DNA of 38,945 nucleotides from a virus. Shown here one piece after another: positions 28,118-38,371 of this stretch (positions within the stretch are counted from its first letter, which is position 1; each line of letters begins with the position of its first letter). The DNA is taken from IMG/VR virus record IMGVR_UViG_3300024518_003327, positions 1 through 38,945 of that record; one strand, written 5' to 3'. Both the position numbers and the translations under genes were made by a program. The notes below the pieces were generated by a model. It saw only the letters and a program-made list of their open reading frames with translations. It did no database searches and had not been told where the DNA came from.

Positions 28118-28507
28118 TCACAGCGCCGGGTATGAATACTTCAGGTCGTAGGTCAGCTCGGCGGAGTACAGCAGCTGACCTTCGGTGTTCGGTTCGTCGA
28201 AGTCCGTCCCGCGCAGGATCAGGATGTGCCACTTCTCCGCGTTGGCATCGAGTTCGTCCTCTACCTGTTTGATAAGATCCTCGAGCGTGGCCATGGTCTT
28301 CTGCGAGCACTTGAACTTCAGGTCGGCCTCGCGGAGCTTCTGCCCTTCCCTGGCGAAGGTCGTCTCATCGTTCTCGAGCCAGACGCAGACCGCCGGCGGG
28401 TCGCTGGTGTCCATCACCTCGTCAGGGTTATCGAAGAGCGTGACGCCGCTGAGTCCCTCGATGATCGCCTCGATCTGCGATCGGATCGTCTGCCGTTCAT
28501 GGGTCAC
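28118..28507 (-). CDS. Tail terminator, U-like
   Basis: 129 aa from GTG at 28507, overlapping the previous TGA (GTGA). Contains TLFDNPDEVMDTSDPPAVCVWLE and ends LLYSAELTYDLKYSY, closely following the course of lambda U: a conserved DxPAVxVYL-like strand and an AxLTYxIxY end. It caps the tail tube and joins it to the neck. A 64-base gap separates it from the tube gene. Confidence 0.75.
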   Translation of the reverse strand: MTHERQTIRSQIEAIIEGLSGVTLFDNPDEVMDTSDPPAVCVWLENDETTFAREGQKLREADLKFKCSQKTMATLEDLIKQVEDELDANAEKWHILILRGTDFDEPNTEGQLLYSAELTYDLKYSYPAL

Positions 28508-29205
28508 GGGTTCGCTAGCTCCATGATGACGTTCCCAATGTTGTCGGTGTGCGGAGGCTGGACGACCTTCCAACTCTCGCCGCCCAGTGTGGGCGCCCAG
28601 GTGTCGCCCTTCTGAACCGTCCCGCCTGCAGAGGCCAGGTCAGCCTTCGACAGCGTGACAGTCGGCATCGTGACGAGGATCTCCTGCCCGCCGGCCAGCC
28701 GGACGCGTTGCGGCTCGCGATCGGTGAGCAGCTTCAGCTGGACAGCGCTTCCGCCGAGCGGCGTATACATGCCGACGTCGCCGAGCTGGTTCCCCAGGTT
28801 GCCCATCATCAGCGCGAACGGGTCGGCCGTGTTCGAGATCGCCGGGACGTACTGGTGGGGCGGAGCCAATTCGAAGTAGTCGTAGGCGTCGATGTTCGGA
28901 TGCGTCGGACTCGACCCATCGAAGTGCATCGTGAGGCGCGTCGACGTGAGGTCGAGATTCGTGTCGCCGAGATTCAAGCCGCCGGCGCGGCTGTAGGTCC
29001 CGTTCCCCAGGTGCGGCAACGTCAGCTCCTGGTCGACGTGCCCCGCCGCCTTGAACACCAGGTCGTCCCAGTCGAGGAAGTAGCTCGTTCCGTCTTCCTG
29101 GAGGTCGACCGTGATCGTCGCGTCTGTGACCGCGCCGACGCTCGAGTTGACGTAGAGGTCGACCGGGATCACCCCGGCCCGGTTCTGGTTTACGTAGGTA
29201 GACAT
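28504..29205 (-). CDS. Head-tail attachment protein, FII-like, with extra N-terminal domain
   Basis: 233 aa from ATG at 29205. The C-terminal 110 residues have VKLKL-like strands (SAVQLKLLTDREPQRV), PTVTLSKADLASA, KGDTW and SWKVVQPPHTDNIGNVIMEL, which is the FII/neck order. The N-terminal 110 residues form an added beta domain (VIPVDLYVNSSVG, ATITVDLQEDG) like an Ig or fibre module. It therefore appears to be a decorated neck protein. Start overlaps the sulfotransferase end by 16 bases. Neck role is inference from motif and place. Confidence 0.65.
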   Translation of the reverse strand: MSTYVNQNRAGVIPVDLYVNSSVGAVTDATITVDLQEDGTSYFLDWDDLVFKAAGHVDQELTLPHLGNGTYSRAGGLNLGDTNLDLTSTRLTMHFDGSSPTHPNIDAYDYFELAPPHQYVPAISNTADPFALMMGNLGNQLGDVGMYTPLGGSAVQLKLLTDREPQRVRLAGGQEILVTMPTVTLSKADLASAGGTVQKGDTWAPTLGGESWKVVQPPHTDNIGNVIMELANP

Positions 29206-30062
29206 TGAATCGAATCCACCATCGACTGGTAGGCTCTCGCCTCCGGTCTCTCCGCGGCCCAATTGAAGACCGCCGCCATATCCATGCCGCGCCACTTGTC
29301 GACGCTCGGCTGTCTGATCGGCCGCGTCGTCTCTCCGTTGGGCCCGGACTTCGGATGGGGGTACGCGTCCCGCAGCAGGCTGTCCGCGTCGATGTTCGTG
29401 TAGGGCACCGCTGAGAAGTCATGGACGAACCGCTCGAGGCCTAGCTGCTCGTACAGGAAGTCCATGTAAGCCTGGGGCCGCGTAAGCCAGTCCTCGTATC
29501 GGAACACGATCATCTCGTTCCTGCAGGTCTCGTACATTTCAAGGACGCAACGGATCGTCCCGCCCAGCACGTCGTCCAGCTTCAGCATCCGCTCGATGAG
29601 CTCGCGTGTCGTCATGTGCTGGCCCGCCTGGACCTGGGTCACTGGATGCTCCAGGTCGTGCGTGATGATCGATGCCAGCAGGTCTCGGAAGTTCCGGACC
29701 GGGACGACGTAGCGACCGCCAGGGAAGAGAGCCTTGAAGAGAGGCCAGGTGATCCCCCACGTCCGCGACTTGTCGAAGACGTGCTGCTCGGTGCGGTCGT
29801 AGTAGCGTCCGCGCGCTGGGCCGCGCAGCACCTCGAGCTGGCTCTCTTTCTCCCATGCGCTGTCGTGCAGCGCCCGGTATGACGGGACGTAACGCCCGAC
29901 CCCGAACTCCGGCTGTAGCACGTGCGTCAAGTCCGCGACGTCCGACGTCGAGCTGGCGAACACGTCGCCCAGCTCAGCGCCGCGCTGGTTCAGAACGTCG
30001 CAGAGCAATGTCCCACCGACACGCGGCGGCCCCCCTACTGAGTGCAGAAACTCGAACCCCAT
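29190..30062 (-). CDS. Sulfotransferase-like protein with variant P-loop
   Basis: 290 aa. Sulfotransferases move sulfate from PAPS to sugars, tyrosines or lipids. The 5'-phosphosulfate loop GGPPRVGGTLLCDVLNQ (10-26) matches the common PRSGSTLL form, but S/T changes to V and G in the centre. VPVRNFRDLLAS (120-131) is the 3'-phosphate-binding strand, with Arg123 and Ser131. DKSRTWG near 97-103 and IVFRYEDWLTRP near 185-196 complete the family pattern. ATG at 30062. It lies among head and neck genes, so it may modify a virion protein or a host surface glycan, as inference. Confidence 0.8.
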   Translation of the reverse strand: MGFEFLHSVGGPPRVGGTLLCDVLNQRGAELGDVFASSTSDVADLTHVLQPEFGVGRYVPSYRALHDSAWEKESQLEVLRGPARGRYYDRTEQHVFDKSRTWGITWPLFKALFPGGRYVVPVRNFRDLLASIITHDLEHPVTQVQAGQHMTTRELIERMLKLDDVLGGTIRCVLEMYETCRNEMIVFRYEDWLTRPQAYMDFLYEQLGLERFVHDFSAVPYTNIDADSLLRDAYPHPKSGPNGETTRPIRQPSVDKWRGMDMAAVFNWAAERPEARAYQSMVDSIQCLPT

Positions 30063-30081: not shown

Positions 30082-30366
30082 TTACAGTTCGCGCGGCGTC
30101 GGTACTGAGGCCGCGTCGACTTCCGCTATCGCGTCGACGTACTTCTGGACGTCCGCCTCTCGCGCCGCCAGTTCCGTCTCGGCCGCGGCCAGGCGCTTCT
30201 CGGATCGGTTCCGCCTGCGACGCACGTCACCTAGAACCCTTCGCGCGTTTCTCTCATGCCCGACGAGCTCGGCGCGGCTGACCTTGATCGTCTCGCCTTG
30301 TCGCTCGAGCGTCGCTGCACCTGTCACCGGGTCGACCTTCGCGGAGTGATTAGATAGATCGCCCAC
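30082..30366 (-). CDS. Small coiled-coil protein
   Basis: 94 aa from GTG at 30366, with AGGGGGG four bases upstream. Central basic helix (RRVLGDVRRRRNRSEKRLAAAE) then a helical, acidic end. Lies between the beta-repeat gene and the sulfotransferase gene. A linking or chaperone role for one of them is possible. No family recognised. Confidence 0.6.
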   Translation of the reverse strand: MGDLSNHSAKVDPVTGAATLERQGETIKVSRAELVGHERNARRVLGDVRRRRNRSEKRLAAAETELAAREADVQKYVDAIAEVDAASVPTPREL

Positions 30367-30375
30367 ATTACCCCC

Positions 30376-31878
30376 CTAGAACGTGGCCGCGCCTGCGGCA
30401 TCCTGGCGCCACCAGTTGGTTCCATCGAACCACATGGACCCAGGCCGCGGCGAGGTAGGATTCTGTTCAGCATGAATCTGCACCTCTGCACCGACTCCAA
30501 TGGAGCCCGCGGTGGGGTTGACCCCGATTCCGAATTGCCAGCAGTTCGAGGCTCCCGTCGCGCGGATGTGCTCGCCCGCAATGACGCCACCGTATCCGAA
30601 GGCGCCGCAGCCGATGCCCGTCACCTCCATCGTCGATCCGCGGGTGATCTTCCCGGCCATGATCGAGGCGGAGCCGCTCATTAGCATCGTGCCCTTTGTC
30701 AGCGTCGTGTGGCCGAGTTGCCCCGAGACGATGTTGCCCTTCGACGCCGGGTCGATGGTCAAGTCGCCGCGGTGGTGCGCGATGTTCACGAAGTTGGCCC
30801 AGCCGTCGAGCGTGAACACTCCATCGTTCACGCGCGGGTCGGAAGCGATGTTGCCAAGGATCCCACGCGATGCCGCTGGAGTCGTGACTGTGAGGTTCTC
30901 TCCGGTCGTCGGGACGTCTGTCGCGAGAAGGATCAGAGAGGCGTTGCCGTCCTGATGGATCTCGCTCGGCGAGCCCGCGCCCGGTGGTGTGTGCGCGAAG
31001 ATGGCGACGTTCGCCTTCCCGGTCTGATCGATGATCCCCTCATCGAGCCACGCCACAGCCAGATTCGCCACGCCCGACTGGGAGAATGAACCGTCGTTGA
31101 GCATCTGCACCACGGATGCATTCGCTGTGCCGTCGATATCCACGGCACCATCGAACTCCCCGACCACAAGGTGTCCCACTCCATCGATCGTGGCCGGTAG
31201 CCCGCTGTGCCTCAGGGCAAAGACCGACGCCTCCGTGTCCTGCGACAGACTCGAGCCGAGGGACCAGATCGCGCCGACGTTCAGTCGGCCGTCCGCTGTG
31301 AGTCCCGTACCAGTCGAAAGCAGGGCAAGGATCGACGAGGTCGCATAGGTGGTCGCGTTGGCGCGATTCGCGTCGACCGTGACGATCGAGAATTGACCGT
31401 CGCCGAAACAGGTCACCGTCCCGGCTAGGTCCTTGAAGGCGGAGAAGACGGACACCCCACCGTAAGCATACGGGCCGGAGTGGCAGAAGGTGTCGCCGGT
31501 CAGAGACCGCGAGAGCCCGATCAGGAGCCCGCCGTAGTACGACTCGCCCAGGACGTCCGCGGTCTCTGTGCCCAGCCCGCGCTCGGTGTGACCGATCACA
31601 ATCGACTGACGATCGAGTGCGCGGACTGTGCCGCCCGATGGCGCCTTGCCGTAGTAACCGCCGCCACTCGTCCCGATCACCAGCGAGTTGCGCTGGGCCG
31701 ATAGTGTCGGCTGGTCTGCCAGACTCAGATCCTGGAGGAAGAGATCATTGAGAGCGCTCGACCAGACCGCCTCATCCTCGGCGGCGTTCCCCGTCAGGAG
31801 CTCGCCGTGCTGGTAGTCCGACGGTGTATCGGGCGCAGAGCTGAAGAACGTGGCCTCGGATAGGAAGACGTCTGCCAT
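30376..31878 (-). CDS. Beta-repeat virion protein, probable head fibre or spike
   Basis: 500 aa. Middle and later parts have irregular repeats of about 20-25 residues such as GSFSQSGVANLAVAW, GIIDQTGKANVAIFA and EIHQDGNASLILLA, typical of a beta-helix or stacked-strand fold. The N-terminus (MADVFLSEATFF) and the C-terminal PRPGSMWFDGTNWWRQD are typical of fibres and spikes. It sits after the decoration gene, so it may bind the capsid, or it may be a receptor-binding spike encoded among head genes. Coding on this strand fits a leftward operon. Confidence 0.62.
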   Translation of the reverse strand: MADVFLSEATFFSSAPDTPSDYQHGELLTGNAAEDEAVWSSALNDLFLQDLSLADQPTLSAQRNSLVIGTSGGGYYGKAPSGGTVRALDRQSIVIGHTERGLGTETADVLGESYYGGLLIGLSRSLTGDTFCHSGPYAYGGVSVFSAFKDLAGTVTCFGDGQFSIVTVDANRANATTYATSSILALLSTGTGLTADGRLNVGAIWSLGSSLSQDTEASVFALRHSGLPATIDGVGHLVVGEFDGAVDIDGTANASVVQMLNDGSFSQSGVANLAVAWLDEGIIDQTGKANVAIFAHTPPGAGSPSEIHQDGNASLILLATDVPTTGENLTVTTPAASRGILGNIASDPRVNDGVFTLDGWANFVNIAHHRGDLTIDPASKGNIVSGQLGHTTLTKGTMLMSGSASIMAGKITRGSTMEVTGIGCGAFGYGGVIAGEHIRATGASNCWQFGIGVNPTAGSIGVGAEVQIHAEQNPTSPRPGSMWFDGTNWWRQDAAGAATF

Positions 31879-31973
31879 GGTGTCCCGAGGCGCGGAATGG
31901 TGGACGGATCATCGACGAGCCGGCGAAGAGCCCCTCTCCCCGGATCCACCACCCCGCGCGGGGGATGCGACTG

Positions 31974-32318
31974 CTAGACCGGAGACTGCGCGATCAGGAG
32001 CAGCGAGCTGGTCTGGGTCGTTGCGACCTTGGCGTCCACCGCGTAGCCGCAGAAGACCGCACCTGTGGCGATGTCGGTGAGCTTCCCGTTGACCGTGTGC
32101 CAGTACAGCTTCGCACCAGCCAGCCAGTCTTCGGCCGTGGTGGCCGGCAGGTAGTGAATCCCTGCCGTCTCGAAGTTGCACATCTGTCCGGTCACCTTGT
32201 CGTTCAGCGAGACCCCGAAGAGGTCTTCCACGTGGTAGGCCGTCCCGGCGGCGTAGGTGGCCAGACCGAGAATCGGCACGACCTGCGAGAGGCCGCCTCG
32301 AAAGGTTGTTCCTGCCAT
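31974..32318 (-). CDS. Capsid decoration protein (DUF2190-type)
   Basis: 114 aa from ATG at 32318. MAGTTFRGGLSQVVPILGLATYAAGTAYHV, then LFGVSLNDKVTG, AKLYWHTVNGKL and GAVFCGYAVDAKV show the DUF2190/gpD-like order with a Trp-Lys core and a Gly-rich start. Small trimers of such proteins stabilise HK97-fold capsids. Follows the protease-capsid gene, as expected. The preceding intergenic hairpin may limit its expression relative to capsid. Confidence 0.75.
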   Translation of the reverse strand: MAGTTFRGGLSQVVPILGLATYAAGTAYHVEDLFGVSLNDKVTGQMCNFETAGIHYLPATTAEDWLAGAKLYWHTVNGKLTDIATGAVFCGYAVDAKVATTQTSSLLLIAQSPV

Positions 32319-32374
32319 GGTGTTTCTCCTTCTTTCTCCGCGCGACTGGCGCGCATTGGTTCGGCATAAACAGA

Positions 32375-32427: not shown

Positions 32428-34578
32428 TTACGCGCCGGCGTTCTTGTAGAGCGGCCGGTGATCGGCAACACCCGTGCCGAAGTCGTGCGAGACGCGCCAC
32501 TGCATCCCGTCCGTGAGGAACGGGTTCTGGGTCACGACGCTCGGACCCGTCTGGCCGGTCAGGTACGCGTGCACCACGCCCGGCATCTGGGTGGGGTCGG
32601 CCGCGAAGTAGTACGCGGTCGTGCTGGCGGCCCCGAGGATCGGCTCCACGATCACAGCCTTGAACGTGCTCTGCAGCTGCACGGTCGAGTTCGCCGCGGT
32701 GGCGTTGTAGGTCACGTCCCGGAGGAGTTGACCCATTACGTTCTCGTGCTCCGCGGGGACGATCGCGTAGGCCGGCACCAGGTTGAGCGCTTTGCTCTGC
32801 ACCGGGTCGGTCTGGTTCCGCATGTCGGTCTTGGCCTCGTCGAGCGTGGTGATCGACGGCGCCCCGGCCGTTCCGAGGTTGCTGTGGTTGGCGTGGAAGA
32901 TCGCGTCTCCGTCGGCCATGTCACCGTTCGCGGTGAAGATCAGCCACATCTGCTCGTTCTCCATCTGAGCGGCAGACTTGCCCATATCGGGCCCGATGCC
33001 GGAGAACGCGGACAGGTCGTCGTTGATGATGGCCTGCCTCGAGATGCCGAAGATTCGGCCGTATGACGTGAGCACGATCGGCTCCTGGCCTTCCCCGATG
33101 GTCCCGTAGCTGAACTCCCCACCTTCGGTGATGGCTGCCAGCGCCGGCACGAGGCCACGCTTCACCATCTGGGTCACCTTGAAGTCCTTCAGCGGGTGGA
33201 AGGTGCTGATGGGGAGGAAGGATCTGTTCCCCTCCAGGTAGCCGTCCATGAGGGTCTTCGCGGCCGATGCGGCCAGGATGTTCGGGAAGTCGTCGGTCGT
33301 GTGGAGTGCGAACTCGATCAGCTTGTTCGGACCCCAGCGCCTGACCGAGCGCCCCTGCTTCTCCTGGGCGTAGTCCCTCATCATGTCGATCAGAGAGAAC
33401 TGCACCCAGTCCTGGCCCGGCTCCGTGAGCTCGTACTTCGCAGGGTTCGCGCGGTACATGATGGCATCTTGGATGCCCTCCCGGAGCGTGCCCTGCTCGT
33501 CCCTCCCTTCGAAGGTGATCCCACTGGGCCCGGCGTCGTCCTTCGTTGCCCGAGCTTCGAGGAGATCCGCGCGGAACTTGTCGACGGTCATGTCCTTGTC
33601 GAGCAGTGCGAGTTTGCCCGCTTCGACCTCGTCCACCTGGGCCGCCAGCTTGATGATGCCGTCGGTCCGTCGGGTCTCGGCCAGGTCTTCGGGGGTCGGC
33701 GTGTCGACGACGTGCATCGTCCGCTTCTCTCCGAGTGTCACATCTTCCTCGACCGGCTGAGTCTTGTCGGTTCCACCGGCCGCCGCTGTCTTCGTGTCTT
33801 CTGCCATTGGGTTCTTCCTTTCCTTGTGCGCGACGGGCGCGCGGTTGACAATTTCAGCGAAGCCCAGAAGCTGGCTCGGCTCGCCAGCAAGAAGCTGCGC
33901 TCCCTTCGAGGCCCCGATCGGGACCGCGGAGATCTCGTTAGGTGTCCAGTCGATCGCGAGGAAGGTCGACAGCTCGTCACCCTTCTCGGTGATGTCTCGG
34001 AGCTTGTGAACGATGAAGCCCACCGAGACGTTCCGGATGATGCCTTCCTCGATCTTGTTCCAGATGGGCGTTACTTCGTCGCCGTCCGAGAACCGCAGCC
34101 TGGCCTTACCACCCTTCGGGCTGACCGTGGCGGAGTCGTCCTCGACGACGCCCAGGACGTCGGCCAGGTCCCACCGGCTGTGATTGTTCAGCACTGGGGC
34201 GCCACTGTTGAGCTCCTCCAGGTTGGCGTGCTTCGGGTCCATGGAGAGCTGCAGGTAGTAACGCTCGCCAGTCCAGTAGTCCTCGCGGAGCACCTTGTCG
34301 CCGGCATACCAGCGGACGTCTTTGATCCGCTCGCCTGGTGCATCGGCGCCTTCTCCGTCGGCGCCTTCTCCGTCGGCGAAGGTCACGTCGACGAGCTCGG
34401 CCGCGAAGCACTCGATCCCATCCGCCCCGAGCGCCTTCGTGGCGTCCTTCACGCGCTGCACGTCTTCCTCGAGTCCTTCCGTATTGAGACGGACGCCGAC
34501 CTCGATCGTGTCGCCTTGCACCGTTGCGAACTCGTGACGCTGTGCTCGTGCTTTCTTCGCGCGGCTCCGCTTGCTCAT
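32428..34578 (-). CDS. Fused prohead protease and HK97-fold major capsid protein
   Basis: 716 aa. Residues 84-225 resemble HK97 prohead protease (S78): PVLNNHSRW supplies His133 and IRNVSVGFIV supplies Ser185, with a strand LEIS-like WTPNEISAVPIGA after it. Residues 258-716 are a major capsid protein of gpT/HK97-type: AITEGGEFSYGTIGEGQEPIVL, YGRIFGISRQAIINDD, IFHANHSNL and AYAIVPAEHENV. An internal ATG (33807) has its own ribosome binding site, so capsid may be made alone too. Located between portal and decoration genes. Confidence 0.85.
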   Translation of the reverse strand: MSKRSRAKKARAQRHEFATVQGDTIEVGVRLNTEGLEEDVQRVKDATKALGADGIECFAAELVDVTFADGEGADGEGADAPGERIKDVRWYAGDKVLREDYWTGERYYLQLSMDPKHANLEELNSGAPVLNNHSRWDLADVLGVVEDDSATVSPKGGKARLRFSDGDEVTPIWNKIEEGIIRNVSVGFIVHKLRDITEKGDELSTFLAIDWTPNEISAVPIGASKGAQLLAGEPSQLLGFAEIVNRAPVAHKERKNPMAEDTKTAAAGGTDKTQPVEEDVTLGEKRTMHVVDTPTPEDLAETRRTDGIIKLAAQVDEVEAGKLALLDKDMTVDKFRADLLEARATKDDAGPSGITFEGRDEQGTLREGIQDAIMYRANPAKYELTEPGQDWVQFSLIDMMRDYAQEKQGRSVRRWGPNKLIEFALHTTDDFPNILAASAAKTLMDGYLEGNRSFLPISTFHPLKDFKVTQMVKRGLVPALAAITEGGEFSYGTIGEGQEPIVLTSYGRIFGISRQAIINDDLSAFSGIGPDMGKSAAQMENEQMWLIFTANGDMADGDAIFHANHSNLGTAGAPSITTLDEAKTDMRNQTDPVQSKALNLVPAYAIVPAEHENVMGQLLRDVTYNATAANSTVQLQSTFKAVIVEPILGAASTTAYYFAADPTQMPGVVHAYLTGQTGPSVVTQNPFLTDGMQWRVSHDFGTGVADHRPLYKNAGA
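33807..33823 (-). promoter_or_regulatory. Internal ribosome binding site for major capsid protein
   Basis: Read leftward, GGAAAGGAAGAACCC ends directly before an in-frame ATG (33807-33805), giving a good Shine-Dalgarno site inside the fusion gene at codon 258, right at the protease-capsid junction. This start would produce a 459 aa capsid protein in excess over the protease fusion. Confidence 0.6.
34343..34378. repeat. 15-bp in-frame tandem repeat in the protease domain
   Basis: Two full copies of TCGGCGCCTTCTCCG (34343-34357, 34358-34372) plus a partial copy. It encodes repeated GADGE and sits in an acidic linker before the protease core (residues 68-82). Being a multiple of 3 it does not shift the frame. 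Copy number may vary between strains. Confidence 0.7.
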
Positions 34579-34587
34579 GTCAGTCTC

Positions 34588-36111
34588 CTACGCGACGGCC
34601 AGGCCGTCGTCGTCGTTGGCGTCTGTCTCTTTGTCTGTCTCTTCGTCTTTGTCGTCGAAGGCGTTCGGGTCGGTCGCCTGCGCCTGACCGGCCTTCGTCG
34701 TCGTTGCGGGTTCGCCGTCGCTGACCAGACCGCGCTCGAGCATGTCTTCGCGCTCCTTCTGGCGCCGCGCGATCACGGTGTCGTAGTTGCGGCCGTAGCG
34801 GGTCGTCAGTTCTTTGTGCGTCGTTATCATTAGCCGCAGCTCCATCTGGTCGCCCTGCAGTTCCTTGATCCGATCGTGCGCCTCGATCTTCGGCGCGATG
34901 TGATCGACGACGGCCTCGAAGGTGCCGGTCTTCCCAGCCAGGACCGCGGCCTCGTTGAACCAGCGCCACACCGTGTATCCGAGCTGCCGGACCATCACGT
35001 CGCCCTGGTAGGTCCGATTCCCCGCCGACATGAACAGGTGGCCCATCCGGTTGCTTGAGAAGCTGCTGTCGGAGTAGTCCCCGGTCAGCGCCGCGTAGGT
35101 GATGTTCGTCCCGCTGCCGAGCGCCTGAAGGTTCGTCTTGTTAAAGCCGGGATAGTTCGCCGAGAGCGTCGGCTGATAGAAGTCCACCCGCGTCCCGTCC
35201 TTCAGATATTGGAACGTCGCCGGGTTCCAGTCCTCCTGCCGTTGCGAGTCTGTCGGGTTGCTGCCCTCGCTCAGCCGGCCCATAAGGTTCCACCCGGCAG
35301 CGTCACCGGTGACGGCGCCGACCGCCATCGATTCGAGGAGCTTCCCTTCGAGTTCGGCCTTCTGGTACTGGTCCAACATCCTGAGCCGCGACATGATGGG
35401 CGCATACCAGCTCGCGCCGATGCGCTGTCCAGGCGTGTCGACGCGGAAGGCGTAGGCCATGTCCTTCGCGCTCACGAACTTGCTCTCCTGGTACGCGACG
35501 AGGTCGGGATGCTCGTCGAAGATCCAGAACCCGCGGAGCCGGTCCAATTTGTCGTAGTCGAGTCCGTTGACGACGCGCCCGGTCTCTGTCTTCCCGTGCT
35601 TCCTTGAGTCGAGGTGACCCGGGTCCAGCGTCTGGATCTGTAGCGGCACCGGCAGGCCGTCCGACTCGCGCCGGGTGCGGCGTCGGATCAGAACCGCGCC
35701 GTCGACCGGGATCGTCTTCGCCCAGAGACCCTGCAGGCCGTAGATCCCCAGCGACCCTTCGGCCGCGGCGTATGGTGCCCACTCGTCCCAGAGCGCCTTG
35801 AGCTGTTCACTCTTCGGGTCTGGAATGATCCCAGGGCCGACCGCGTTCATCGCGATCACCGACCGGATGCGCTCGGCGTAGGGGTTGTTCCGCACCGCGT
35901 CCCGCGCGTTCGCGAGCAGGTCCGGAGCTTCGTCTCTCAGAGAGTCATTGATGTGTTCACCCGGGATCTGCCAGCCACCCATCTCTCGACGCGTTCGATC
36001 GGATCCCTTATAGGCACGGAATAGCTCCATCCGCTTTCGAGCGACACCACGCGCGAGGCCGTGCTTCGGAGAGACAAAACCGATCGCGCGGTCGATCCAA
36101 TTCGCAGCCAC
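34588..36111 (-). CDS. Portal protein, lambda type
   Basis: 507 aa. Matches the lambda gpB-type portal: N-terminal RAYKGSDRTRREMGGW, RDEAPDLLANARDAVRNNPYAERI, AMNAVGPGIIPDP, then GAVLIRRRTRRESDG and PLQIQTLDPGHLDS, then GAVTGDAA and YQPTLSANYPGFN, the wing-to-stem order. Dodecamers form the DNA channel and anchor terminase. The C-terminus is acidic. Followed by protease-capsid, as in lambda-like modules. Confidence 0.88.
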   Translation of the reverse strand: MAANWIDRAIGFVSPKHGLARGVARKRMELFRAYKGSDRTRREMGGWQIPGEHINDSLRDEAPDLLANARDAVRNNPYAERIRSVIAMNAVGPGIIPDPKSEQLKALWDEWAPYAAAEGSLGIYGLQGLWAKTIPVDGAVLIRRRTRRESDGLPVPLQIQTLDPGHLDSRKHGKTETGRVVNGLDYDKLDRLRGFWIFDEHPDLVAYQESKFVSAKDMAYAFRVDTPGQRIGASWYAPIMSRLRMLDQYQKAELEGKLLESMAVGAVTGDAAGWNLMGRLSEGSNPTDSQRQEDWNPATFQYLKDGTRVDFYQPTLSANYPGFNKTNLQALGSGTNITYAALTGDYSDSSFSSNRMGHLFMSAGNRTYQGDVMVRQLGYTVWRWFNEAAVLAGKTGTFEAVVDHIAPKIEAHDRIKELQGDQMELRLMITTHKELTTRYGRNYDTVIARRQKEREDMLERGLVSDGEPATTTKAGQAQATDPNAFDDKDEETDKETDANDDDGLAVA

Positions 36112-36361: not shown

Positions 36362-38371
36362 CTAAAGCCACCCGTCAAACTCGTCTCGTCGCTTGCGTTG
36401 TCGCCGCGGCGTGTGCTCGCTCGGCGCGTAGCGTGTGTTCGGTTGCTGTAGGACCACCGGGTCCGCCGCCACTGTGGGCGCTTCGATCACTTTCCCGCGG
36501 ACTTGCTCGGCCAGGGCGTCCAGGTCGAGGCCGATCGTATACAGCGCGCAGAGCGCCGCGTAGTTGTAGACGGAACAGTCGAAGACCTCGTTCCGCAGTC
36601 GGCCTTTGCGAAGACGCCAGACCTTGACCGGGAAGCCCTTGGCGTTGACGGTCGGGAACCGCTCCTCGGCAGTGAACTGCCTGAAGTAGTCCGATCCAAG
36701 GGACATGGGCCAGTGCAGCGTGCCGGGCCCGCTCTTCCCGCCCTTCAGTCTGGCGTCCGCCCTCGCATAGACCCACTCCTTCGCCGGGTCGACCTTGATC
36801 GTGTAGATCGGGCAGTCCTTGAAGTTCGGCGCCTTGCCTGCTTTCGCGGGCCAGACCTGGCCGGTCCCGCTCGAACCCCGAACCGCCCAGGTGAAGCCCT
36901 GGCCACCTTCCGGCGTTCTGTAGATCGGCCGCGGGCTGACGAACTGATAGATCGACTGGGCCGCGTAGTTCGCATCGATGCAAGTCGAGCGGATGTAGTC
37001 GACTCCGCCGCGCTCCATGTAACGCGGCCGAAGCATCGAGTCCCAGACCACCGACCAGAGCGGCTCGGCTGTGGGGTCGCCGTGGTAGACGTTGTGCTCA
37101 ACCACCCAGACTTCCTCACCGCCACCCCAGCCCCACACGCTTTGCTCGACCCGGTCTGGCTGGACATCGAACGACGAGGTGAGGACCGCGACGCCCTCCG
37201 GCACGAGCTCCGCACGCTCCGGCTCGCCATCGGGAAGGGCCCGGCCTGTCTCGCGTAGTGCGTACGCCTCGCGGCATCCCAGCAGCTTCTCGTCGTCCGG
37301 CGCTTTCCCGACGACCTCGAACGGTTCGCCCAAGACCGTGTTCACCCAGACCTGGAGCTTGAGCGGGTCGTCTTTGACTTCCAGGAACTCGGCCGCGATC
37401 TTGCCCCACGCGGCAGAAGGGAGCGGCGAATAGGCCGCCCAGATGTGCCAGCCCGGGAAGAGCCCGTCCGGGTTCGTCGCAAGGTAGTGACCCTCCTCGA
37501 CCATCCGCGCCCGCTCCCGATACCCGATCGGCTGCAGGCATTGCTCGCACAGATAGAACGCCTCGAGCGGTCGACCTTCCGGCCACTTGATTCCGTAATC
37601 ATGATCCCGGCCGCCCCAGCTCAGCGGCTGGCCGTGGTCGCAGTGTGGACACGGGACCTGGTAGAACCGCTGATCGGAGAGCTCGAACTCACGCTGGATC
37701 TTCGAGCTGTCTTTGTGCTTCGGCGTCGAGCCGATCACCAGGAGCGGGTTCGGACAGTCGCCCATCCGGCCCTCGAGCAGCTTCAGCTGATCGCCTTCGC
37801 CTCCGCCCCGACCGCTTCCCGCGCTGGCGATGTAGGCGTCGACCTCATCCGCAAAGGCGAGACCGACTGAGATCTGCCGGAACAGCTTCGCCGAAGTGGC
37901 GGCGCCCATGTAGAGCGTCCCACCCAGGTAGCTCTTCCGCTGGATCGTGTTCGAGCTGCTCTTCTCGCGTTGCTCTGCGACGAGACCCCGGAGCGCTGGG
38001 GTCTGATCGAACATCGGCTGGATTTCGGTGGTCGAGAACGTCGACGAGTCGCCGTCGGTCGGAGAGCACACCGCGATCGAACACGGGTCAATGTGGATCC
38101 GCCGACCGATGGCGGCCACGATGCAGCCCTTCGTGAACCCGGTTCGCTTGCTCTTCCGCATCACGACGCGCTCGATCCCGAGCTCCGGCGCCTCGGCGAT
38201 GAGGTCCATCGGTTCGCGCTGGTAGCCGATCGCTCGGAAGCGCCCCGGCGTGCTGCTGGACTGGCCTTGGAATCGGTAGTGCTTCTCAGCCCACTCGACC
38301 CCGCCCATCTTCGGCGGCGGCCTCAGTAGCTGCGCCGCTTGCTGCGCCGCCTGCCACTGCGGTGCCGTCAT
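36362..38371 (-). CDS. Large terminase subunit, lambda gpA type
   Basis: 669 aa. ATPase features: a Walker A-like stretch RKSKRTGFTKG (72-82) and Walker B LAFADEVD (171-178). A zinc pair CPHC (241-244) and CEQC (275-278) is typical of gpA. Nuclease-domain residues follow in the C-terminal half. It pumps DNA into the prohead and makes the staggered cut at cos. ATG at 38371 overlaps the small subunit gene by 86 bases, and GGGGAAG precedes it. Confidence 0.9.
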   Translation of the reverse strand: MTAPQWQAAQQAAQLLRPPPKMGGVEWAEKHYRFQGQSSSTPGRFRAIGYQREPMDLIAEAPELGIERVVMRKSKRTGFTKGCIVAAIGRRIHIDPCSIAVCSPTDGDSSTFSTTEIQPMFDQTPALRGLVAEQREKSSSNTIQRKSYLGGTLYMGAATSAKLFRQISVGLAFADEVDAYIASAGSGRGGGEGDQLKLLEGRMGDCPNPLLVIGSTPKHKDSSKIQREFELSDQRFYQVPCPHCDHGQPLSWGGRDHDYGIKWPEGRPLEAFYLCEQCLQPIGYRERARMVEEGHYLATNPDGLFPGWHIWAAYSPLPSAAWGKIAAEFLEVKDDPLKLQVWVNTVLGEPFEVVGKAPDDEKLLGCREAYALRETGRALPDGEPERAELVPEGVAVLTSSFDVQPDRVEQSVWGWGGGEEVWVVEHNVYHGDPTAEPLWSVVWDSMLRPRYMERGGVDYIRSTCIDANYAAQSIYQFVSPRPIYRTPEGGQGFTWAVRGSSGTGQVWPAKAGKAPNFKDCPIYTIKVDPAKEWVYARADARLKGGKSGPGTLHWPMSLGSDYFRQFTAEERFPTVNAKGFPVKVWRLRKGRLRNEVFDCSVYNYAALCALYTIGLDLDALAEQVRGKVIEAPTVAADPVVLQQPNTRYAPSEHTPRRQRKRRDEFDGWL

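Follow-up and report, generated by a model that had tools for sequence, protein, structure and literature searches.

The window analysed here, by which we mean the whole stretch of 38,945 nucleotides, comes from an uncultured tailed phage (source record 39 kb, 64% GC). It carries a lambda-like head/neck operon in which the genes follow one another in the order terminase, W-like protein, portal, protease/capsid, decoration-like protein, 500-aa protein, 94-aa protein, sulfotransferase, FII-like protein, U-like protein and tail tube. The members of this operon to which the argument refers are as follows.

36362..38371, minus strand: terminase large subunit, GpA type
34588..36111, minus strand: portal protein
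32428..34578, minus strand: prohead protease/major capsid fusion
31909..32367, minus strand: decoration-like small protein, so named because it occupies the place of lambda D
30376..31878, minus strand: P0002, 500 aa, beta-type protein rich in Gly, Ala, Ser and Thr, a candidate both for the virion surface and for the substrate
30082..30366, minus strand: P0003, 94 aa, small, coil-like
29190..30062, minus strand: P0001, sulfotransferase-fold gene, 290 aa (open reading frame, profile and predicted fold)
28504..29205, minus strand: FII-like head-tail attachment protein, extended at its N-terminus by about 125 aa

P0001 is an intact open reading frame of 290 codons that runs on the minus strand from an ATG at 30062 to a stop codon ending at 29190, and the plus strand across 29190-30062 contains several stops. 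An earlier reading made from the letters of the DNA (the sequence-only reading) had described a sulfotransferase-like gene embedded in the head/neck operon at these positions, and its coordinates and gene order agree with ours. The gene is tightly packed between its neighbours. A gap of 19 nt separates P0003 from its start, an AGGGGG lies about 12 nt upstream of its ATG, and its 3' end overlaps the ATG (29205) of the FII-like gene by 16 nt. Its base composition (GC 0.64, GC3 0.84) is similar to that of the neighbouring genes. A scan restricted to consensus sequences detected no sigma-70-like promoter between 28000 and 33000, and no minus-strand terminator was found in the same interval. A second IMG/VR contig, possibly not an independent sample, is identical to the window over 16.9 kb, including the P0001 open reading frame.

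The flanks of P0001 had been described as a beta-repeat protein and a coiled coil, and these descriptions survive in weakened form: the 18-residue repeat period of P0002 is borderline (p=0.067) and the coiled-coil matches of the flanking genes are all sub-threshold. A single-sequence AlphaFold2 model of P0002 reached a pLDDT of 37, too poor for a structure search, and no relatives of this protein were found in phages, the PDB or viral contigs apart from the identical contig. The N-terminal extension of the FII-like protein holds acidic tyrosine sites (Y42, Y108 and Y110). A scan of the window proteins for such sites gave 3/8 in the FII-like protein vs 12/160 elsewhere, numbers too small to carry weight; sites of this kind are present in the FII-like, J and post-J proteins and we claim no enrichment. 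Within the window, no other modifying enzyme was recognised by Pfam and no gene for making PAPS was recognised. PHROG 27 (tail completion or Neck1) also has a match at 816-1451, outside the head-tail block and at the opposite end of the window; were the genome circular, it would lie upstream of the terminase block.

For comparison with syntenic relatives we screened 80 viral contigs with related terminases, 6 further loci and 3 isolates. A related capsid gene was present in 41 of the screened loci, 21 of which extend at least 3 kb beyond it. A search for the three-gene insert in related phages had been proposed in the sequence-only reading, and the outcome was negative: no sulfotransferase of the P0001 family occurred in any of the 41 capsid relatives, the 21 with at least 3 kb downstream included, and no relatives of P0002 or P0003 were found among the screened syntenic loci. 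Within the reach of these data, the block of P0002, P0003 and P0001 is thus confined to this lineage. Rhodobacter phage RcMamaDuck shows the same gene order, with a small post-capsid gene directly before the head-tail attachment gene. P0001 resembles a moron in being an extra gene relative to syntenic relatives, but the consensus scan gave it no promoter or terminator of its own, and its base composition is not deviant as that of a moron would be. A search for prophage relatives through the terminase in genome contigs returned 0 loci with a single query and one 30% locus with a pair alignment; with so nearly empty a result, the host of the phage was not found.

The sulfotransferase identity of P0001 was borne out at the level of the fold by profile and structure searches. 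The PHROG 27463 profile matches residues 6-229 of 290 with an E-value of 1.2e-14. Pfam Sulfotransfer_3 (PF13469) matches with an E-value of 2.9e-4 and 21.6 bits, which falls short of its 27-bit cut-off, and for this reason we file P0001 under the fold and the PHROG and not as a member of PF13469. An NCBIfam search gave no match, and a phmmer search of P0001 alone against the PDB returned noise only, so that a family profile was needed. When 29 relatives from viral contigs (alignment A6) were used for AlphaFold2, the model of P0001 reached a pLDDT of 75.5 and a pTM of 0.75, with residues 220-249 poorly modelled. The top Foldseek matches of this model are human and tick protein-tyrosine sulfotransferases (TPSTs; E 3e-7). 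A VIA-align comparison placed TPST1 ahead (Z 16.4, 4.1 A over 227 residues) of heparan sulfate 3-O-sulfotransferase (Z 14.3), NDST (13.6) and the SULT group (at most 12.5). The family profile likewise ranked TPST1 first among PDB sequences (2.2e-10), with CurM close behind (5.8e-10) and an olefin-synthase sulfotransferase domain at 2e-8. Among viral folds, that of the S-SCSM1 sulfotransferase comes closest (TM 0.63). Identity to any relative is 20-25%, and the end branch of P0001 is so long (3.3-3.5 changes per column) that its position in the tree cannot be fixed, which makes any transfer of function from the context of relatives risky.

The residues expected of a cofactor site are arranged along P0001 in four stretches.

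30006..30032, minus strand: 5'-phosphosulfate-binding loop, residues 11-19 (GPPRVGGTL), R14 family-invariant
29757..29774, minus strand: DKSRTW motif, residues 97-102, R100 and W102 invariant
29670..29699, minus strand: 3'-phosphate-binding motif, residues 122-131 (VRNFRDLLAS), R123 and S131 invariant
29355..29384, minus strand: C-terminal stretch with family-invariant D227 and H236, low model confidence

The sequence-only reading had described two sulfotransferase motifs, and both are confirmed: PRVGGTLL in the P-loop and VRNFRDLLAS for binding of the 3'-phosphate. Nine residues (G11, P13, R14, R100, W102, R123, S131, D227 and H236) are invariant over 52 bacterial and phage members of the family, and P0001 retains every one. 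Departures from the family pattern are found elsewhere. The leucine beside P13 that is common to all other members is P12 in P0001, the family SPV motif is SDV, and the alignment leaves the place of an otherwise invariant arginine uncertain (L155, with R152 and R158 nearby). P0001 retains 72% of the conserved columns, compared with 62-75% in other divergent phage members, and the gene thus does not have the look of one in decay. The P-loop reads PRVGGT (V15, G17), whereas most relatives have PRSGST. That change had been taken as a hint that activity or co-substrate choice may differ. The change itself is real and in its double form unique to P0001, but each single change has precedents: PRAGST, found in several phage members, has no hydroxyl at the first variable position, PRSGVT, found in two, has none at the second, and KGGT is the working loop of heparan sulfate 3-O-sulfotransferases. 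The altered loop is accordingly no argument that activity was lost or that the co-substrate is new. By fold, profile and motif, P0001 is a PAPS-dependent sulfotransferase, with sulfate transfer as its predicted activity. A more specific TPST label was considered and dropped, despite TPST being the nearest fold, because the catalytic glutamate is missing. The general base of TPST, the GEETR-motif glutamate (Glu99 in TPST2), corresponds in the alignment to T39 of P0001 and to S, T or N across the family.

Bacterial relatives of P0001 were present in 13 of 398 Pseudomonadota genomes. In seven of the 13 a giant open reading frame directly follows the sulfotransferase on the same strand, and all seven giant proteins contain DUF4347; among three that were scanned with Pfam, one also carries fn3/Ig repeats and one cadherin-like repeats. 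DUF4347 itself occurs in 93/398 genomes overall vs 10/13 of those with the sulfotransferase (Fisher p=5e-5), and the adjacency of the two genes would arise by chance with a probability of about 3e-16. Among the papers open to our literature search, none described this pairing. That bacterial sulfotransferases of this family sit beside giant adhesin-like DUF4347 proteins is a new observation of the present analysis. The pairing can be followed in bacterial loci L212-L222 (for example L214:4979-10701). A Caballeronia sulfotransferase adjoins an M10 metalloprotease gene, with a C39-peptidase ABC exporter two genes away on the other side (L223:4422-10475). On a Nostoc plasmid (L224:6980-8582), the sulfotransferase gene is followed by cysC and a gene for a hemopexin-repeat protein; cysC encodes APS kinase, which makes PAPS.

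Phage relatives were found on cyanophage-type contigs, and control genes were drawn from the same contigs for counting neighbours. Kelch or RCC1 propellers were immediate neighbours of the sulfotransferase in 17/70 cases vs 4/72 for the control genes (p=0.002), and GT25 was an immediate neighbour five times, compared with 0 among controls. The neighbour counts take related contigs as independent, which makes the p-values optimistic. Giant fibre/baseplate-like proteins, 2OG-Fe(II) oxygenases, GT1-FkbM fusions and carbamoyltransferases lie within three genes of the phage copies. These surroundings suggest that the cyanophage-type clusters beside propeller and giant fibre-like proteins serve the decoration of proteins or glycans. 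Clusters drawn from sulfotransferase, 2OG-Fe(II) oxygenase, GT25, GT1, FkbM methyltransferase and carbamoyltransferase genes occur in loci L005, L007, L044, L063, L066, L103 and L117. Three phage neighbours weakly match the APS_kinase profile, with KTI12 a slightly better match.

The reading that we favour, tentatively and at somewhat less than an even chance, is that P0001 sulfates a beta-rich surface or virion protein late in infection with PAPS from the host. According to this proposal, P0001 would be a PAPS-dependent sulfotransferase that is active or was so until recently, presumably made late along with the head and neck proteins among whose genes it lies. The sulfate donor would be PAPS made by the host. 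The sulfate would go to a beta-rich surface protein whose gene lies alongside, most likely P0002, which would then be located in the virion, with the FII-like neck protein or another virion protein as alternatives; the group modified could be a tyrosine, another hydroxyl or a glycan carried on the protein. Progeny surfaces would become sulfated and negatively charged, which could alter adsorption, aggregation or recognition. We counted in favour of this proposal the packing of P0001 in the operon, its composition and cofactor-site residues, and the fact that, among solved structures, both profile and fold put relatives that act on proteins at the top. The DUF4347, Kelch/RCC1 and fibre- or baseplate-like neighbourhoods of relatives also favour a beta-rich surface or virion target, and the rax-like exporter arrangement in Caballeronia was counted on the same side. 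Counted against it were the low identity and unplaced branch of P0001, the lack of conservation of the TPST glutamate, the lack of relatives or a usable model for P0002, and the failure of Pfam to recognise a further modifying enzyme in the window. We also considered a wider proposal, in which a phage protein sulfotransferase modifies the virion's own surface or neck proteins in late assembly and belongs to an unrecognised family whose bacterial and phage members pair the enzyme with large beta-rich surface proteins. Taken as a whole, that proposal is doubtful.

Glycan targets fit the cyanophage clusters equally well, since these hold glycosyltransferases, methyltransferases and carbamoyltransferases. 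Late in infection P0001 might sulfate a host-envelope glycan (LPS, O-antigen or exopolysaccharide) and so keep progeny from re-adsorbing to debris or infected cells, by receptor masking or superinfection exclusion. The carbohydrate sulfotransferases (HS 3-OST and NDST) form the next fold group at Z 13-14, the copy in S-SRM01 has a glycosyltransferase and a nucleotide-sugar epimerase nearby, GT25, GT1/FkbM and carbamoyltransferase genes adjoin other phage copies, and a glycan made by the host would call for no further modifying enzyme in the window. The bacterial relatives, however, are tied to giant adhesin-like proteins in 7/13 genomes, and P0001 is wedged among head/neck genes and not in an early or lysogenic-conversion region. 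On balance we regard a host glycan as an unlikely target.

Quite improbable, in our estimate, is that P0001 has lost catalysis and is kept as a structural or assembly factor, in which case its P-loop and long branch would be signs that selection had relaxed or shifted. A loop without either of the canonical hydroxyls, the change of SPV to SDV and the very long branch would fit such a history, but R14, R100, W102, R123, S131, D227 and H236 are all in place, single losses occur in other phage members, 3-OST works with a KGGT loop, and the open reading frame is intact and identical in the second contig. Least probable of the readings weighed is an auxiliary metabolic enzyme that sulfates a small molecule unrelated to the particle, such as a metabolite or a polyketide-type substrate: many sulfotransferases do act on small molecules, CurM and the olefin-synthase domain are close in profile, and the sulfotransferases of glacier viruses were called auxiliary metabolic genes (PMC8290583), but P0001 has no metabolic genes around it in its tightly packed morphogenesis operon and no examined family member lies in a polyketide cluster.

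The sequence-only reading had regarded a phage that sulfates its own particle as new. Phage sulfotransferases as such are on record: OM43 phages carry them, with a function stated to be unclear (PMC10580990), and the cyanophages S-SKS1, S-SRM01 and S-SCSM1 have sulfotransferase annotations. A search of the literature, with most subscription journals outside its reach, found no report of a phage sulfotransferase acting on the virion. The phage 'PAPS reductase/sulfotransferase' proteins of PMC10434257, PMC10269572 and PMC2920897 are apparently CysH-type PAPS reductases and belong to a different family.

Among known systems, the sulfotransferases of PHROG 27463, of the three cyanophages and of the marine single-cell viruses AG-345 share the fold and the invariant residues with P0001, at 21-25% identity. 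The genomes of the named cyanophages measure 208-241 kb, and several have glycosyltransferase/oxygenase/propeller clusters, whereas P0001 differs in its P-loop and sits between decoration-like and FII-like genes in a lambda-like operon. Human TPST1 and TPST2 align with P0001 at the P-loop arginine and the 3'-phosphate motif, but identity is about 15% and their glutamate base is not conserved. RaxST of Xanthomonas oryzae is a bacterial tyrosine sulfotransferase encoded in an operon with the C39 exporter RaxB, a pairing of the enzyme with the export genes of its target (PMC4216712). The Caballeronia relative of P0001 is also near a C39 exporter, a likeness of gene arrangement, whereas no exporter was recognised in the window. 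If the favoured reading is true, bacterial protein sulfation would reach well beyond the RaxST system. At the P0001 locus the enzyme gene is fixed among head and neck genes next to a possible substrate; together with the family-wide link to giant adhesin-like proteins in bacteria and to propeller/fibre-like proteins in cyanophages, this offers concrete proteins to examine for sulfate. A close parallel to the proposed role comes from mycobacteriophages, for which virion glycosylation is attributed to Freeman et al. 2023 as cited in PMC11256854 and PMC12619734. According to these citing accounts, capsid or tail proteins of the particles bear an added group that is ascribed to enzymes of the phage, as we propose for P0001, although glycosylation was seen on the particles there, while sulfation here is deduced from genes and would involve a different enzyme class. 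If the favoured reading is true, sulfation would join glycosylation as a means of decorating phage particles.
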